A DNA stretch of 38,641 nt from Ferroacidibacillus organovorans. Its GTDB lineage: Bacteria; Bacillota; Bacilli; Alicyclobacillales; SLC66. A model generated the notes under the pieces. It saw nothing but the letters and a program-made list of their open reading frames with translations, ran no database searches and was not told the DNA's origin. How positions within the stretch are numbered: position 1 is the stretch's first letter; each line of letters begins with the position of its first letter. This document shows, one piece after another, positions 26,278-33,384 of this stretch. The stretch is taken from assembly GCF_001642725.1 (NCBI RefSeq), contig NZ_LSUQ01000023.1, positions 1-38,641 of the forward strand, given 5' to 3'. The position numbers and the translations under genes were made by a program.

Positions 26278-26457
26278 GAACCTGAAAGATCCAAAAGGAA
26301 GGACTGAGATGTCCAGCCGTTTCCTCTCGTTGCCTCGTCGGTAGCTGCAATCGCTTTTCCAGAGTTGCATCCTTCGCCGCTATTTTACCTGAGAGTTTCT
26401 GTGTTCGCTTAGGTGGCGCGCACATTGCCCCATCGGTGGTAGCCCGTACACTCTCGC
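26268..26457 (-). ncRNA. Tandem glycine riboswitch
   Basis: On the minus strand the leader shows both aptamers. The first has GAGAGT at the start, CCACCGATGGGGCAA and AAACTCTCAGGTAAAA. The second starts with ACTCTGGAAAAG, has CTACCGACGAGGCAACG and ends with CTTTCAGGTTCAAAGACAGAG. These match the conserved blocks of the B. subtilis gcvT-type tandem glycine riboswitch in the same order. It controls the serine dehydratase genes through the terminator that follows. Confidence 0.9.
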
Positions 26458-26502
26458 GTCGAAATCATTTGCCTTGTATTCAATTGTAAGCTTGCATCTT
26501 TC

Positions 26503-28336: not shown

Positions 28337-28365
28337 TATTTATCCTCTGTTTTTCGTACTATAAT
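28337..28365 (+). promoter_or_regulatory. Promoter of the fapA-like transcript
   Basis: A perfect -10 TATAAT at 28360-28365 lies 22 bases before the riboswitch. The -35 is weak (TATTTA at 28337-28342 with a 17-base spacer, or TTGTAT at 28334-28339 with 20). Confidence 0.55.
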
Positions 28366-28387
28366 TTATGAATCGCGATAATTTCAT

Positions 28388-28468
28388 ATTGGCAAACCTA
28401 TCGAAAGATAGGGACGCAAAGCTACGGGTCTAAGGGCTGTCGCCTATGATCGCCGGGTTGCTGCCAGT
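28388..28468 (+). ncRNA. c-di-GMP-I (GEMM) riboswitch upstream of the fapA-like gene
   Basis: The conserved blocks are present in order: GGCAAACC, a GAAA-capped stem (CCTATCGAAAGATAGG), GGACGCAAAGC, a CGGGTCTAAGG stem part and GCCGGGTTGC, closed by TGGCA/TGCCA. This is the class I c-di-GMP aptamer. An intrinsic terminator follows (28488-28518), so binding of c-di-GMP probably controls read-through into the fapA-like and receiver genes. Direction (on or off) cannot be read with certainty. Confidence 0.92.
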
Positions 28469-28487
28469 TCACTGAGCATACCCGACA

Positions 28488-28518
28488 TCCCTATAAATTT
28501 AATGGGGAATTATTTTTA
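28488..28518 (+). terminator. Riboswitch expression-platform terminator
   Basis: TCCCTAT (28488-28494) pairs with ATGGGGA (28502-28508, one G-T pair) around an AAATTTA loop and is followed by ATTATTTTTA. It sits between aptamer and the start codon at 28545. Confidence 0.7.
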
Positions 28519-28544
28519 TGACAAACGGGAGCAGGTGAGCCGGT

Positions 28545-30386
28545 ATGTTAAAATCCATTTTTAAGTATTTCCAGCATGATCAAAAGAATAGTAACAATCA
28601 AGTTGCGGAGAATCCCCCGGCACAGCCCCTTCCCATTCCTTCGCCCAATTCATCATCTATTGACGGTTATGCATATATAGAGAATAACAAACTTGTTGTC
28701 GTCGACCCTAAAAATTACGGATTTTATGCAACGGTCATCGTTCCAGACGATGATCGACTGGAATTTAGGATCGACGGGAAAAAAACCATTGGTGAAGTTG
28801 TCGTCAGTGAACTCTATCAAATTGACGTGGTTACTCGTGGAAGAGAGCCTTCCACAAAACGATTCACGAGAGTTTCCGAAGATAAGCTCTCCGTCTCAGC
28901 GATTGTTCAGATTGAGACTGGAAGCAGCGTCATGCTATCCAATAGCCGACCCTCTTTGCAAACAGAACTTGTGATTGAAGAGTATGCAGAGGAACGAGAA
29001 GTTGAACCTGTTTCACCCTATGCGATTTTAACCTTACTCAAAGAACAAAACTTCCACGGAGAGATCGATTACTCTGCGATCCATCGATTATGCCAACTGT
29101 CAACCTCAGGTGAAGAAGTTGTTCTAAGAGGGATTGCTCCCAGCCAAGGGGAACCTGATCACCTAAACCAGATAAACCTCCCCGTTGAGAAAGATGATGA
29201 ATTACGTTTGACACACCCATCCCTCATTACGGCAGGAACCATTATCGTCGATCAACAATTGGGAAAAGAAGGAACTCCAGGACGAGATGTTTATGGGTTT
29301 GAGATTCCTGCCTCACAAAATGTCAAACCTCTCACGCTTGGGCAAGGTGTCATACGAGTAAATACACACATCGTAGCGGCAAAAAACGGTAGGCTCATCT
29401 TCTCAAAGCAGCGAATTGACGTCGTCTCTGAATGTGTTGTCGATCACGATGTAACCTCAGCAGACGGAAAAATCGTATTTGATGGAAATGTCATTGTAAA
29501 AGGCTCTGTACTTGATGGTGCACACATTCACGCAACAGAATCTGTTATCGTTTACGGAGATGTTTTTCACTCCACAATCTATGCCGAACAGGATGTCATC
29601 GTAGCGAGAACGATTCATAATTCAAAGGTTTGGGCAGGAAACTTAAAAACCATTTACAGCGACTTGAGTCCACTGCTTCTGCGAATGATCTCAGGTCTTG
29701 AGAAATTAAAGGAAGAGTATTTGTTGATGAAATCGCATGTACTAAAACGTTATGATGCACATGCCGTATTACCAAAAATCTCTTCCGTCCTTCTTGAAAA
29801 ACGGCATGTTGACTTACTGGATGATCTAGAGTTTTTCGTAAAAGAGTATCAAAACCACCTTTCCATCGATCGCGAATATCAATCCTTATCGGAATTGCTA
29901 TGTACGAAGTGGAAGGAAGTACAGCTTACCCCACTCTTAGAAGAAGATATTCAGAACTTACTCTCTAAGATGAAGGATTATCATGACCGAATTGTAAAAA
30001 TCACTCCCGGCATCTCGGTTATCCGTGTCTCCAATGCTATCTCTTCTTATCTGAATTCATACGGAAATATTTTCATTACGGATAAAGGATGTTTTTCAAG
30101 TAACCTTGAGAGCAAAAAGGCGATCGCCATACGCGGAAGTTTACGCGGTGGATTTGCAACGGCATACCATGCTGTATCCGTCGGTGAGTTGGGAAATTCA
30201 TATGGAATGGAGAGCAGCGTTCGCGTCACCAGCTTATCAGGAATGATTAAAATTGCACTGCGTCACTCCAATACGCTCGTTGAATTATGCGGTAAACGTG
30301 ATCGATGTTATTCAGAAGAAAATAATCTTTATTTAAGGGGCGATACGATCAATGATCAAAATCCTGTTAGTCGACGATTATCCTGA
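28545..30386 (+). CDS. FapA-family (DUF342) protein
   Basis: A 613-residue soluble protein of the FapA/DUF342 family. An N-terminal acidic and Pro/Ser-rich part precedes the family core, with a LTAGTIIVD-like strand region (TAGTIIVDQQLGKEGTPGRDVYG) and a right-handed beta-helix of short repeats (DGKIVFDGNVIVKGSVLDGA, then HATESVIVYGDVFHSTIYAEQ). A helical coiled region (about 370-485) follows, then another beta stretch. Relatives are linked to cell-surface, flagellar or polysaccharide functions. ATG 28545 has GGGAGCAGGTGAG upstream. It is governed by a c-di-GMP riboswitch and overlaps the receiver gene by 35 bases. No flagellar genes are nearby. Confidence 0.87.
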   Translation: MLKSIFKYFQHDQKNSNNQVAENPPAQPLPIPSPNSSSIDGYAYIENNKLVVVDPKNYGFYATVIVPDDDRLEFRIDGKKTIGEVVVSELYQIDVVTRGREPSTKRFTRVSEDKLSVSAIVQIETGSSVMLSNSRPSLQTELVIEEYAEEREVEPVSPYAILTLLKEQNFHGEIDYSAIHRLCQLSTSGEEVVLRGIAPSQGEPDHLNQINLPVEKDDELRLTHPSLITAGTIIVDQQLGKEGTPGRDVYGFEIPASQNVKPLTLGQGVIRVNTHIVAAKNGRLIFSKQRIDVVSECVVDHDVTSADGKIVFDGNVIVKGSVLDGAHIHATESVIVYGDVFHSTIYAEQDVIVARTIHNSKVWAGNLKTIYSDLSPLLLRMISGLEKLKEEYLLMKSHVLKRYDAHAVLPKISSVLLEKRHVDLLDDLEFFVKEYQNHLSIDREYQSLSELLCTKWKEVQLTPLLEEDIQNLLSKMKDYHDRIVKITPGISVIRVSNAISSYLNSYGNIFITDKGCFSSNLESKKAIAIRGSLRGGFATAYHAVSVGELGNSYGMESSVRVTSLSGMIKIALRHSNTLVELCGKRDRCYSEENNLYLRGDTINDQNPVSRRLS

Positions 30387-30780
30387 GACGCTTGAAGCGC
30401 TCTCGCAATTGTACGAACTGCATTCAAATGTAAAAATTGGGGGATGCGCTCTGAATGGAGCAGAGCTCTTTAAAATTCTTGAAAAGGATAACACATTTGA
30501 TATCATTTCCATCGATATTCAATTAGGGAAAGAAAACGGACTTCAACTTTGTGAAGAAATTTACCAAAAATATCCAAATTCTTTCATTTTAATGTGCTCA
30601 CTAGAAGCGAGTGAAGCAAATCAAAAAGAAGCAATTCGTGCAGGTGCATCTTATTTTTTAGCTAAACCGATTTCTTCTACCTCTATTCGAAAAGTGATTG
30701 AAGTTTATAAAGCTACAAGAATGAAACGGGCATTTCCCGAACAATTCGATCATTGGGTCGATGATCTTTTAATCAAGTAA
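30352..30780 (+). CDS. Stand-alone response-regulator receiver
   Basis: A 142-residue receiver domain without an output domain. Key residues are in place: D8-D9, the phospho-acceptor D55 in SIDIQ, S83 and K105 in AKPI. About 20 extra residues (RMKRAFPEQFDHWVDDLLIK) follow the receiver. It overlaps the fapA-like gene and shares its c-di-GMP-controlled transcript. With no DNA-binding part it probably signals by protein contact. The DegS-like kinase at 32283-32954 is a candidate partner, though that family usually pairs with NarL-type regulators. Confidence 0.92.
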   Translation: MIKILLVDDYPETLEALSQLYELHSNVKIGGCALNGAELFKILEKDNTFDIISIDIQLGKENGLQLCEEIYQKYPNSFILMCSLEASEANQKEAIRAGASYFLAKPISSTSIRKVIEVYKATRMKRAFPEQFDHWVDDLLIK

Positions 30781-30788
30781 ACTATTTC

Positions 30789-30808
30789 TGCAATCCAATT
30801 GCAATTTT
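30789..30808. terminator. Weak hairpin between converging genes
   Basis: TGCAAT-CCA-ATTGCA followed by ATTTT lies between the receiver stop and the end of the TPR gene. A short stem, possibly a weak two-way terminator. Confidence 0.35.
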
Positions 30809-30811
30809 GAA

Positions 30812-32278
30812 TTACGTTTGAAACAGTTCAAAAAAACGCTCCACAACGGTTTCGTCATACCGCATACCACATTGACTAGCGAGTTGGTGTAGACACTCAT
30901 CGTGCGTTTTTTGATGGATCGTGACTCCTTGTGTATACGCGTCAACAACACTCAAAACTTTCGCTAAAAAATTAATATCATTGGCCTGTTTTCCTTGGGG
31001 AAATCCTGATCCATCGAGAAGCTCATGGTGGTCGATAATGATGTCGATTACACATTGATCCAATTGGATCGTTTGTGCCATACTCACACTCAGCCATGGA
31101 TGCTTTTTATATTGTTCATAAGCTTGAACCGATCGATCGGGGTTTAGCACCAACTCGTGCTCTAATGCAGTTAATCCATAGTCTGCCAATCGCGCGGCGA
31201 GAATGAGACGATCTTTTTCAGTGTTTGACAAACCCAATTGATCTGCGAGCAATTTTACATAGTGAACTCGAACATCCAACAATGTAGAAATTTTTTTATC
31301 AATAAGTTCTTGAGAATTGATGGCATCGAGGATCGTAAGAAAAAGACGAATTTCTTGAAGAGAAATTCCATTTAAATCCGTGCCATCAGGGGTATCTGTG
31401 CAACTCGCTGACAACTCCATCCATTCCGTCACTTCAGAGTCAATATCCTGCCACTGTCTCCACATTCCTAATTGCCCAAAAAATAATTGAGCTTTCTCGT
31501 TTAGGCGAATTGCCAAATCCACCTCATGAAAGTGCATGGAGATTTGAGCTAACAGATGACATAAACGAGCAATTTCCTCTTTATCATAATTGATAATTCT
31601 GGACCAAACGAGACGAAGCGCTGCCTCTGCGTTATGAATACCTTCATGAATACGGCCTCTTAAGAGATTCATTCTCCCCATTTCAGAGATAATATCCATG
31701 TGCTGATCACCAGATATTGTGAAGGCACGGTTCAAATACTCCTCCGCCTGCTCAAAGTCTCCATTCTCTAGGTAGGCCAGCCCCAAATTGTTATAAAGAT
31801 CTGCGATGTATCCCTCTGAATCTTTAACCAAAGAAAAAAATTCTAAACTTTTATGAGCGCTGATCATCGATTGATCGTAAAAACCGTGAATGCCTTGAAC
31901 CGCAGAAAGGTTAAGGTACAAAAGACCACGTGTCTGAGCCGATATTTCATCTTTAAACTCAAGTAATTGATTGAGGTAGCGATAACTGGTATCAAACTCC
32001 GAAAGTCGTCGGTAGGCAACTGCGAGATGAACATGATACTTAACCCAGGCGTCTTTGCTGTGTGCGCATGAAATTGCTGATAAAAAAAGCCCGACAGACC
32101 GCTTATAATCTGTTAAATAAATCGATAATTTTCCTTGTTCATCATAAAACTCTCCCTTATTTTCATTATTTTGATCCTCTGACGTATGCTCTAAATTTCG
32201 CAGTTCATCAAGCGCTGCGTGAAAGAGGCCATTGGAAATGAATGCTTTCGCTTTATGTAAACGCTCTCCCCAATTCAC
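30812..32278 (-). CDS. TPR protein with degenerate HD-GYP-like domain
   Basis: A 488-residue cytoplasmic protein. Residues about 1-290 are helical repeats of TPR type (for example ADLYNNLGLAYLENGDFEQA and EEYLNRAF). The C-terminal part resembles HD-GYP c-di-GMP phosphodiesterases: HPWLSVSMA, then DHHELLDGSGFPQG and VLSVVDAYTQG. The first His of the family (H-x-x-R-V) is Leu and the HD of LHDIGK is Ala-Asp (AARLADYGL), so metal binding and catalysis are doubtful; GYP reads GFP. It may bind rather than cleave c-di-GMP. GTG 32278 has AGGAGTGAG six bases upstream and lies four bases after the kinase stop. An in-frame earlier start at 32332 is unlikely. Confidence 0.85.
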   Translation of the reverse strand: MNWGERLHKAKAFISNGLFHAALDELRNLEHTSEDQNNENKGEFYDEQGKLSIYLTDYKRSVGLFLSAISCAHSKDAWVKYHVHLAVAYRRLSEFDTSYRYLNQLLEFKDEISAQTRGLLYLNLSAVQGIHGFYDQSMISAHKSLEFFSLVKDSEGYIADLYNNLGLAYLENGDFEQAEEYLNRAFTISGDQHMDIISEMGRMNLLRGRIHEGIHNAEAALRLVWSRIINYDKEEIARLCHLLAQISMHFHEVDLAIRLNEKAQLFFGQLGMWRQWQDIDSEVTEWMELSASCTDTPDGTDLNGISLQEIRLFLTILDAINSQELIDKKISTLLDVRVHYVKLLADQLGLSNTEKDRLILAARLADYGLTALEHELVLNPDRSVQAYEQYKKHPWLSVSMAQTIQLDQCVIDIIIDHHELLDGSGFPQGKQANDINFLAKVLSVVDAYTQGVTIHQKTHDECLHQLASQCGMRYDETVVERFFELFQT

Positions 32279-32282
32279 GTTC

Positions 32283-32954
32283 TCACTCCTGATATACGGG
32301 TACTTGAATGATAAATGTACTCCCTTGCCCAATGCTAGAATGGATTTCCAATGTTCCTCCTAAATAGGCTGCTCTTTCTTTCATCCCGATGATTCCGTAA
32401 TGACCGGGAGGTGTATAACTCGTATCAAAGCCGATCCCATTGTCTTTAATGTCTACCACAAGATCACCTCCATTTTTTGAAATTAACACATCAATCGTTC
32501 TCGCTTTTGCGTGTTTCTTCACATTGTTAAGGATTTCCTTGATGAGTCGATAAATCGCCACCTGTTTTGCAGGCGCAATTTCACTAGAAAAAACGATCTC
32601 ATCCATTGTCATGAGAATGGGGATGCTCCAATTCTTCTCCAATTGTTTGCAGAGTTCCTTAACTGCTTCGAATAATCCAATTTCATCAATGGCAATCGGT
32701 CGTAGATCATAGATGAGATGCCGTATTTCATTCACAACAGCGCCCACTCTTTTGTGCAACTGATTTACCTGTACCTTAGCCATTTCCGGGTGACTGTCAA
32801 TCATTTGTTCAATAACATCGAGTTTCATACTGATATTTGTTAAAACTTGTGCAGGGCCGTCATGCAAATCTCGCGCGATTCTTCGCCGCTCTTCTTCAAG
32901 AATCCATATCCCGTGATCCATCTGATCATAGACAGGCAACGTAGGTTTTTCCAT
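32283..32954 (-). CDS. Soluble DegS-like histidine kinase
   Basis: A 223-residue HisKA_3/HATPase kinase without transmembrane or sensor domain. The phospho-acceptor is H31 in RIARDLHDGPAQ; N-box EILNNVKKHAKA, DNGIGFD and GIIGMKERA complete the ATP site. It has only about 20 residues before the H-box, so the signal must come from a partner, plausibly the TPR protein four bases downstream. Its ATG (32954) has only a weak GGATGA upstream. The gene starts 20 bases after a terminator with no room for a promoter. Confidence 0.92.
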   Translation of the reverse strand: MEKPTLPVYDQMDHGIWILEEERRRIARDLHDGPAQVLTNISMKLDVIEQMIDSHPEMAKVQVNQLHKRVGAVVNEIRHLIYDLRPIAIDEIGLFEAVKELCKQLEKNWSIPILMTMDEIVFSSEIAPAKQVAIYRLIKEILNNVKKHAKARTIDVLISKNGGDLVVDIKDNGIGFDTSYTPPGHYGIIGMKERAAYLGGTLEIHSSIGQGSTFIIQVPVYQE

Positions 32955-32974
32955 ATGAGATCATCCATTTCCAA

Positions 32975-33004
32975 GAAAAATAGGAGGGGAATCCATCCCC
33001 CTCC
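32975..33004 (-). terminator. Terminator after the secreted peptide gene
   Basis: On the minus strand GGAGGGG (33004-32997 region) pairs with CCCCTCC (32989-32983) and is followed by TATTTTTC. It separates the peptide gene from the kinase gene; expression of the kinase operon would need read-through or a promoter inside the peptide gene, where a TATAAT occurs at its stop codon. Confidence 0.8.
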
Positions 33005-33020
33005 TTCGATCTTTTTACAA

Positions 33021-33233
33021 TTATAACGCCGTTCTCCAACCGTCATGCGTCATCTTGCTGGTTGTTCCTGTCGCAGAGCGATGCGATTGCCCCTGAGCAC
33101 TGCCGGCATTTGATCCCATCGCCGTCGGTTTACCAGTACTACCACTAGAATGAATGACGTTTGCAAATGCAGGTGCTACATTTAAAGCGACTGCGACAGC
33201 GATCGTAGACAATGATATTACGAGTTTCTTCAT
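33021..33233 (-). CDS. Small secreted Gly/Ser/Thr-rich peptide under c-di-GMP control
   Basis: A 70-residue protein with a clear signal peptide (MKKLVISLSTIAVAVALN, cleavage after APAFA) and a mature part of about 46 residues rich in Gly, Ser, Thr, His and Ala, without Cys. No family recognised. ATG 33233 is chosen because GAGGGG is nine bases upstream; the ATG at 33242 directly abuts it. A c-di-GMP riboswitch precedes it and a terminator follows. It could be a surface or matrix component or a signal. Confidence 0.72.
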   Translation of the reverse strand: MKKLVISLSTIAVAVALNVAPAFANVIHSSGSTGKPTAMGSNAGSAQGQSHRSATGTTSKMTHDGWRTAL

Positions 33234-33262
33234 GACGATCATCCCCTCTTATCGGTTGGGTT

Positions 33263-33349
33263 CCGGCAACTCGGCCACCATAACACGTTAATCCATGTGT
33301 AGTAGGCCCGTAGCTTTGCGTCCCGATCTTTCGATAGGTTTGCCCGGTT
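33263..33349 (-). ncRNA. c-di-GMP-I riboswitch upstream of the secreted peptide gene
   Basis: On the minus strand: CCGGGCAAACC, CCTATCGAAAGATCGGG, GGACGCAAAGC, CGGGCCTAC and GGCCGAGTTGCCGG, closed by CCGGGCAA/TTGCCGG. The core differs from the 28388 riboswitch at only two or so positions from GCAAACC to CTA. No terminator is visible before the start codon, so control may act on translation near the GAGGGG ribosome binding site at 33243-33248. Confidence 0.92.
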
Positions 33350-33355
33350 AGCAAA

Positions 33356-33384
33356 ACTATTGCATATCCTCTTTGTGAAGTCAA
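33356..33384 (-). promoter_or_regulatory. Promoter of the riboswitch-peptide transcript
   Basis: TTGACT (33384-33379) and extended -10 TGCAATAGT (AATAGT at 33361-33356), 17-base spacer, on the minus strand. Transcription would start at about the first base of the aptamer. Confidence 0.7.

Follow-up and report, generated by a model that had tools for sequence, protein, structure and literature searches.

A riboswitch-linked peptide, kinase and TPR–HD-GYP gene set in Ferroacidibacillus organovorans and its relatives: a candidate propeptide–receptor module

The closest described counterparts of the locus reported here are the RRNPP(A) propeptide–receptor systems (Rap-Phr, NprR-NprX, PlcR-PapR), the regulons of GEMM-I riboswitches, which respond to cyclic di-GMP (c-di-GMP), the HD-GYP phosphodiesterases and the FapA/DUF342 proteins. 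The defining features of RRNPP systems were taken from a genome survey (PMC10075063), in whose main text the terms HD-GYP, histidine kinase and c-di-GMP do not occur. In the open-licence literature we found no description of an RRNPP system with an HD-GYP domain, of a c-di-GMP riboswitch with a peptide pheromone, or of FapA or Alicyclobacillus with a c-di-GMP riboswitch. The locus lies in Ferroacidibacillus organovorans, on a stretch of 38,641 nucleotides (contig NZ_LSUQ01000023.1) that is referred to below as the window and to whose positions the coordinates refer. Between two c-di-GMP-I (GEMM-I) aptamers, the plus strand carries FapA followed by an overlapping stand-alone receiver, and the minus strand carries a small open reading frame (ORF) with a signal peptide, a histidine kinase and a tetratricopeptide repeat (TPR) protein with a degenerate C-terminal HD-GYP domain (the TPR–HD protein).

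Comparison of sequences and predicted structures supports the conservation of this gene set, its linkage to riboswitches, the conservation of the peptide, the covariation of its tail with the TPR domain, and the TPR and HD folds. On balance we favor, with modest confidence, an RRNPP-like system gated by c-di-GMP, in which a propeptide and a receptor bearing a degenerate HD-GYP domain would be coupled to a sensorless kinase and a lone receiver.

Conservation of the gene set in the order

The survey covered 59 genomes of the order Alicyclobacillales, acidophilic relatives of Bacillus, and a wider profile search covered 398 genomes of the class; L numbers denote loci and G numbers genomes, G000 being the genome of the window and G001 its sister. 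Full-length TPR–HD loci number 30 in the 59 genomes and are confined to the order, the profile matches outside it spanning the HD part alone. A GEMM-I aptamer with a signal-peptide ORF directly downstream is found at 26 of the 30 loci, the kinase is usually next, and the FapA–receiver pair adjoins in about half. Since genomes of the order hold from 0 to 20 GEMM-I aptamers (eight in the 3.03-Mb genome of the window), chance co-location is negligible. The four loci without aptamer and peptide are one with a transposase-cut kinase (L175), one at a contig end (L183) and two from a single genus (L185, L186). At L175 (G041:C55, 1-2500) a transposase-like gene splits the kinase, no adjacent aptamer or peptide was found, and the TPR–HD gene is intact.

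The kinase lies between the peptide and TPR–HD genes in the window and at most loci. Three kinase-less loci (L053, L189, L180) keep the aptamer, the peptide and an adjacent TPR–HD gene, and the minimal unit is thus riboswitch–peptide–TPR–HD. One of them, L053 (G000:C4:106000-116000), is a second such unit in the genome of the window, without kinase or FapA and with the tail TSHGWREIW; it is a natural cross-talk control for the peptide/TPR pair of the window. As judged by eye, the riboswitches at the other GEMM-I loci of this genome (L056, L057, L054, L055) precede genes for one XRE and one winged-helix-like regulator, two proteins of the GGDEF-EAL type and a secreted coiled protein. A search of a named-genome collection with the TPR–HD protein returned one true orthologue, in Alicyclobacillus herbarius DSM 13609, followed by HD-GYP proteins only; the corresponding search with FapA gave no match. 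At five loci (L186, L187, L188, L190, L191) luxS, encoding S-ribosylhomocysteinase, directly follows the TPR–HD gene of a kinase–TPR–HD operon, identified by PF02664 (183 bits) at L190 and by sequence similarity at the remaining four; another quorum-sensing-related gene thus adjoins the module.

A sequence-only reading of the locus had described an AT-rich island between two near-identical, inward-facing GEMM-I aptamers, each with its own promoter, and had made the occurrence of the gene set in relatives its test. The two inward-facing aptamers were recovered by Rfam cmscan (RF01051, gathering score 35 bits; scores in Table 1), which places both in the c-di-GMP-I class by covariance model and predicts their ligand. 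"Near-identical" proved too strong, as the P2 hairpin and core agree and P3 and its loop differ. On the minus strand a promoter-like site, TTGACT-17-AATAGT, lies directly upstream of the aptamer; on the plus strand a sigma-70 scan gave no match before 28381, although a TATAAT is visible at ~28360. The gene set does recur, and in many genomes both operons have a GEMM-I aptamer. Within the family, members of other genera (G008, G007, G013) also keep the genes together, as do G018, G033, G037, G038, G042 and, with a broken fapA, G019 from another family of the order; in G052, likewise of that second family, the set is grouped but no receiver was found.

The AT-rich composition was likewise borne out by a windowed profile. 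The GC content of 1-kb windows is 0.39-0.44 within the locus and 0.47-0.55 on either side, and that of single genes is 0.36-0.42 (peptide gene 0.49) against 0.53 for the flanking MFS gene and 0.49 for CorA. An island in the mobile sense is another matter. The sister genome has the genes at the same site, in identical order, with the same MFS and CorA neighbors, two inward-facing aptamers and the same dip in GC, so the stretch is resident rather than a recent insertion; other genera follow their own GC. A recent horizontal island was therefore excluded. Nor is the inward orientation the essence of the locus. A convergent arrangement is seen in the window and at L029, L031, L058 and L180; it is divergent at L059, L061 and L177 (and, with one aptamer, at L032 and L033), tandem at L060, L062 and L063, and a single operon at L064. 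Because the arrangement varies, it is the shared c-di-GMP control that characterizes the module, and the inward pair was rejected as a functional feature.

The propeptide, its tail and the TPR–HD protein

At the 26 loci the first ORF after the aptamer follows a gap of ~19-32 nt, encodes 44-75 aa and has a Shine-Dalgarno (SD) site and a Sec-like N-terminus. A basic N-terminus and a hydrophobic core are present in 26/26 peptides and an AxA-like site in 25, by a simple scoring and not by SignalP; RRNPP propeptides are defined as 10-100 aa with an export signal, and these peptides, with their predicted signal, are of that kind. In the order as a whole, the peptide has a low-complexity, freely variable middle, and the last 8-10 residues recur, with tails that include THDGWRTAL, SDGYRMFW, HDGYRVIW, SPDGMVLIW, SPDGMIWIWD, SHGWREIW, SPDTLVRPIWD and TPDSTLPIVVE. 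A C-terminal motif of the (P/H)DGxxxIW type, written after inspection of the data, fits 24 of the 26 peptides compared with 5.6% of shuffles. The peptide ORF is under purifying selection, with a ratio of nonsynonymous to synonymous substitution rates (dN/dS) of 0.13 between the window and its sister genome and 0.07-0.3 in close pairs. In 17 of the 26 loci a terminator-like hairpin stands 3' of the peptide gene, and peptide mRNA would consequently exceed receptor mRNA.

The TPR–HD protein has 488 aa, with a GTG start at 32278 favored over a TTG at 32332. Its AlphaFold2 model is of high confidence (predicted local distance difference test, pLDDT, 92; predicted template modeling score, pTM, 0.89). 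Residues 1-294 align to pheromone receptors, namely Rap-phi3T with pheromone (Z 22.5), NprR-NprX (22.2), Rap-CSF (21.7) and RapH (19.6), and NprR was also matched through its sequence profile (E 8e-12). The protein thus resembles an RRNPP receptor of 250-500 aa with TPRs of the peptide-binding type; other TPR proteins, however, give alignments that are just as good. The match of residues 299-488 is to HD-GYP domains (DvhD, Z 22.6; PmGH, 19.7). The HD motif reads LADYGLT where PmGH (4MCW) has MHDIGKV: the His is replaced by A or C in 12/12 aligned relatives and the following Lys is replaced too. The HHExxDGxGYP motif is present as DHHELLDGSGFP, and the His of KKHP and the Asp of VVD are retained. 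From these residues the domain would be degenerate, with metal binding still possible, and "pseudo-HD-GYP", the term of the sequence-only reading, was right in the sense that the first HD motif is lost. In three genomes (G011, G012, G051) a kinase is co-encoded with a TPR protein without a recognizable HD motif, and G011 and G051 have, after this pair, a gene for a response regulator of the LuxR type; such operons tie the TPR protein to two-component signaling.

Covariation was examined in the 23 loci with peptide, kinase and TPR–HD genes, 18 of which remained after thinning of close pairs. With HD and kinase distances removed, tail distance correlates with TPR-domain distance (partial Mantel r 0.48, p ~0.0003; r 0.52 in the thinned set), in a test that removes shared ancestry only incompletely. 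Partial Mantel tests gave no covariation of the tail with the HD domain (-0.16) or the kinase (0.07), nor of the peptide's export half with the TPR domain (-0.06). As TPR and HD are parts of one protein and only the TPR part covaries, phylogeny alone hardly explains the result. The sequence-only reading, which was silent on the recurring tail, the peptide/TPR pairing and the expression platforms, had taken c-di-GMP to set a surface protein. We found no indication of one: the predicted exported product is a small peptide, and since its conserved, receptor-covarying part is the C-terminus, a propeptide fits better.

Expression platforms and the remaining genes

In all 26 peptide leaders a 3-bp stem (S1) and an anti-SD/SD stem (S2) can form directly after the aptamer as an interlocking H-type pseudoknot. 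S1 shows compensatory changes, being CGG/CCG in most leaders, CAG/CTG at L058, CTG/CAG at L060 and L063, and CGT/ACG at L032; the S1 count comes from a register found for each sequence, a search with some freedom, as the MAFFT alignment, with the rows of the window and L029 one column off, was unusable for it. S2 changes in step (CCC/GGG, TCCT/AGGA, CTCCT/AGGAG). Its own pairs score 274.5 against 251.8 (standard deviation 9.9) for species-swapped pairs, an excess that is only moderate because CCC fits any GGG; that over shuffled sequence is strong. In the open-licence literature we found no description of such a pseudoknot platform over the SD for GEMM-I riboswitches.

FapA leaders instead mostly carry terminator-like hairpins. 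At L058, L176, L177, L180 and L183 pairing is possible between the aptamer's 3' end and the terminator's 5' arm, and it is significant against shuffles only at L180 and L183. This is the layout expected if c-di-GMP lowers expression, and these predicted pairings suggest that it does so for the FapA operon in several relatives. In the fapA leader of the window a search for competition between P1 and the terminator was non-significant (p 0.45); its platform is probably of the transcription type.

The kinase combines HisKA_3 and HATPase_c domains and has no sensor domain. Of 12 aligned kinases, only that of L033 lacks the H-box and ATP motifs. The only response regulator of the window's set is the receiver adjoining FapA, which is presumably the partner of the kinase; it and its orthologues have a short C-terminal extension with a recurring DDLLxxL-like end in many relatives.

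FapA passes both Pfam gathering thresholds (PF03961, 61.1 vs 31 bits; PF20250, 44 vs 27 bits) and was modeled at pLDDT 85 (AlphaFold2), and Foldseek gave no match to it below E 0.27. Orthologues occur in 32/59 genomes, often after a GEMM-I aptamer; in some cases an EAL or GGDEF-EAL gene precedes fapA. A reading of FapA as a surface protein is unsupported. Its flagellar name may also mislead, because the gene is kept in G014, a 99% complete genome in which flagellin was not detected; FapA is likewise kept without detected flagellin in G050, and flagellin is present in the genome of the window. The fapA frame is interrupted by a stop or frameshift at L058 and L062 (G038, G019), perhaps through decay or phase variation. 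At L061 and L062 an EAL gene lies between riboswitch and fapA, and poly-G tracts of ~20 G occur close to its start (~120-140 nt past the aptamer at L061, ~100-120 nt at L062); by analogy these may be as in phase-variable genes.

The features of the locus are collected in Table 1. Elsewhere in the window, a glycine riboswitch aptamer (26368-26468, minus strand, 47.5 bits) precedes minus-strand genes starting at 26370.

Table 1. Positions of the features of the locus in the window
Feature	Position	Strand	Evidence or remark
c-di-GMP-I (GEMM-I) aptamer, FapA–receiver operon	28381..28465	+	RF01051, 78.8 bits, E 5e-14
Terminator-like hairpin and T-run, aptamer–fapA gap	28488..28516	+	7-bp stem, -7.2 kcal/mol; sister genome -8.6
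FapA, DUF342-type beta-solenoid protein with coiled-coil insert	28545..30386	+	PF03961, PF20250
Stand-alone receiver without output domain	30352..30780	+	PF00072, 75 bits; alignment of 12
TPR receptor-like protein with degenerate C-terminal HD-GYP domain	30812..32278	-	HD_5, 69 bits; TPR families
Sensorless HisKA_3/HATPase_c histidine kinase	32283..32954	-	PF07730, 69 bits; PF02518, 49 bits
Terminator-like hairpin, gap between peptide and kinase genes	32982..33005	-	-16.6 kcal/mol, ATTTTT tail
Propeptide gene, signal-peptide ORF of 70-73 aa	33021..33242	-	start probably second Met at 33233 (MKKLV...)
Codons for conserved C-terminal tail THDGWRTAL	33024..33050	-	tail recurs in relatives
Expression platform, S1 CGG 33265-33263 / CCG 33255-33253	33243..33265	-	formable in 26/26 leaders
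Anti-SD CCC 33260-33258 with SD GGGG 33246-33243	inside 33243..33265	-	predicted pairing
c-di-GMP-I (GEMM-I) aptamer, peptide–kinase–TPR–HD operon	33262..33354	-	RF01051, 74.9 bits, E 4e-13
Promoter-like site TTGACT-17-AATAGT	33356..33384	-	consensus match only

Proposed mechanism, alternatives and comparison with known systems

In the proposed RRNPP-like system, one c-di-GMP-I riboswitch would control translation of the propeptide and, through read-through of the terminator-like hairpin, the kinase and the TPR–HD protein, while the second would control FapA and the stand-alone receiver. The Sec-type signal would export the propeptide, of which the short C-terminal tail would be the signal part. 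The TPR superhelix would recognize this tail as Rap and NprR do Phr and NprX peptides, and binding would alter how the TPR protein acts, by way of the degenerate HD-GYP domain, on the sensorless kinase and the receiver, a change that would set the action of FapA. Export, processing, re-entry and binding of the peptide, pairing of and phosphotransfer between kinase and receiver, FapA as the output and the direction of the switches are what we infer from the comparisons above. A bolder claim would be a new class of cell–cell signaling, in which a c-di-GMP riboswitch licenses both pheromone and receptor and a TPR receptor with a repurposed, catalytically degenerate HD-GYP domain acts on the sensorless kinase, the lone receiver and FapA; this we put forward tentatively, as possible rather than probable.

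Several observations weigh against the RRNPP-like system. The kinase usually separates the peptide and TPR genes, unlike in known RRNPP pairs. The TPR superhelices of LGN/Pins and APPBP2 align at Z 23-24, at least as well as Rap, so that pheromone binding does not follow from the fold alone, and the incomplete correction for ancestry bears on the covariation. In the subgroup of the window the conserved part of the peptide is ~40 residues, longer than the Phr pentapeptide, and two of the 26 tails (L179 and, in our own reading, L060) fall outside the motif. Finally, the kinase of L033 (8069-8716, minus strand; G007) has lost the G-box that binds ATP as well as the phospho-acceptor His (HDG changed to SEG); this pseudokinase is kept in the module, and kinase activity is accordingly dispensable in at least one genome.

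Among the alternatives, the one that survives best, although we judge it unlikely, is that the peptide has a structural or membrane-active role as a secreted product (surface coat, amyloid-like or antimicrobial) and that the TPR–HD protein has another ligand, for example a partner protein or a nucleotide bound in the HD pocket, both within one c-di-GMP regulon. Surface components are often found in c-di-GMP regulons, the HD domain has kept several of its metal-ligand positions, and the long conserved stretch just described, which lies past the cleavage site, would suit such a product; a freely varying middle with a recurring end, and a tail that covaries specifically with the TPR domain, would not. 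It is improbable that the locus is an ordinary regulon of functionally unrelated, c-di-GMP-controlled neighbors with FapA in flagellar assembly: the linkage repeats in all orientations and in two families, and FapA persists in the two genomes without detected flagellin, even if the genes at the other GEMM-I loci of this genome, the flagellar name of FapA and the occurrence of FapA–receiver pairs without the peptide operon in some genomes speak for it. Very improbable is a small ORF that serves as a cis-acting leader with an inert peptide, c-di-GMP-set translation at the SD controlling read-through of the hairpin before the kinase, since its place between riboswitch and hairpin is offset by the signal-peptide features of every peptide, the order-wide conserved C-terminus, the low dN/dS and a covariation with a protein encoded elsewhere in the operon that a leader would not be expected to show.

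If true, the RRNPP-like system would join intracellular c-di-GMP and peptide quorum sensing, which are usually studied apart, at one RNA switch, and would add a receptor type (TPR with degenerate HD-GYP domain and co-encoded kinase) to the pheromone receptors of Bacillota. The analysis provides concrete peptide tails with candidate cognate TPR proteins, including two paralogous pairs in one genome (THDGWRTAL, TSHGWREIW), as well as a conserved platform through which a GEMM-I riboswitch would sequester the SD.

Compared with FapA/DUF342 proteins, the FapA of the module has both FapA Pfam domains and the MinC_C-like beta-solenoid, but it has an extra N-terminal beta region, is encoded in one operon with a lone receiver, joined in some cases by an EAL or GGDEF-EAL gene, and is kept in a nearly complete genome without detected flagellin. 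HD-GYP phosphodiesterases (PmGH 4MCW, DvhD, Bd1817) share the fold and the HHExxDGxG(F/Y)P motif with the TPR–HD protein, in which, by contrast, the HD His and next Lys are replaced in all aligned members and the domain is fused to TPRs. As in GEMM-I regulons, the aptamers score well above the gathering score and the FapA leaders of relatives end in terminators whose 5' arm can pair with the aptamer 3' end; the peptide leaders differ in their compact, conserved platform, an anti-SD and a 3-bp stem that can form an H-type pseudoknot over the SD. With RRNPP(A) systems the module has in common a small Sec-type propeptide with a conserved tail, a nearby gene for a TPR protein (~490 aa) that forms the same superhelix, a tail that covaries with the TPR domain and a two-component link as for Rap and Spo0F. 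It departs from them in a receptor without a helix-turn-helix or the N-terminal bundle of Rap, in a C-terminal degenerate HD-GYP domain as the effector, in a sensorless kinase encoded between peptide and receptor at most loci, and in expression from a c-di-GMP riboswitch.

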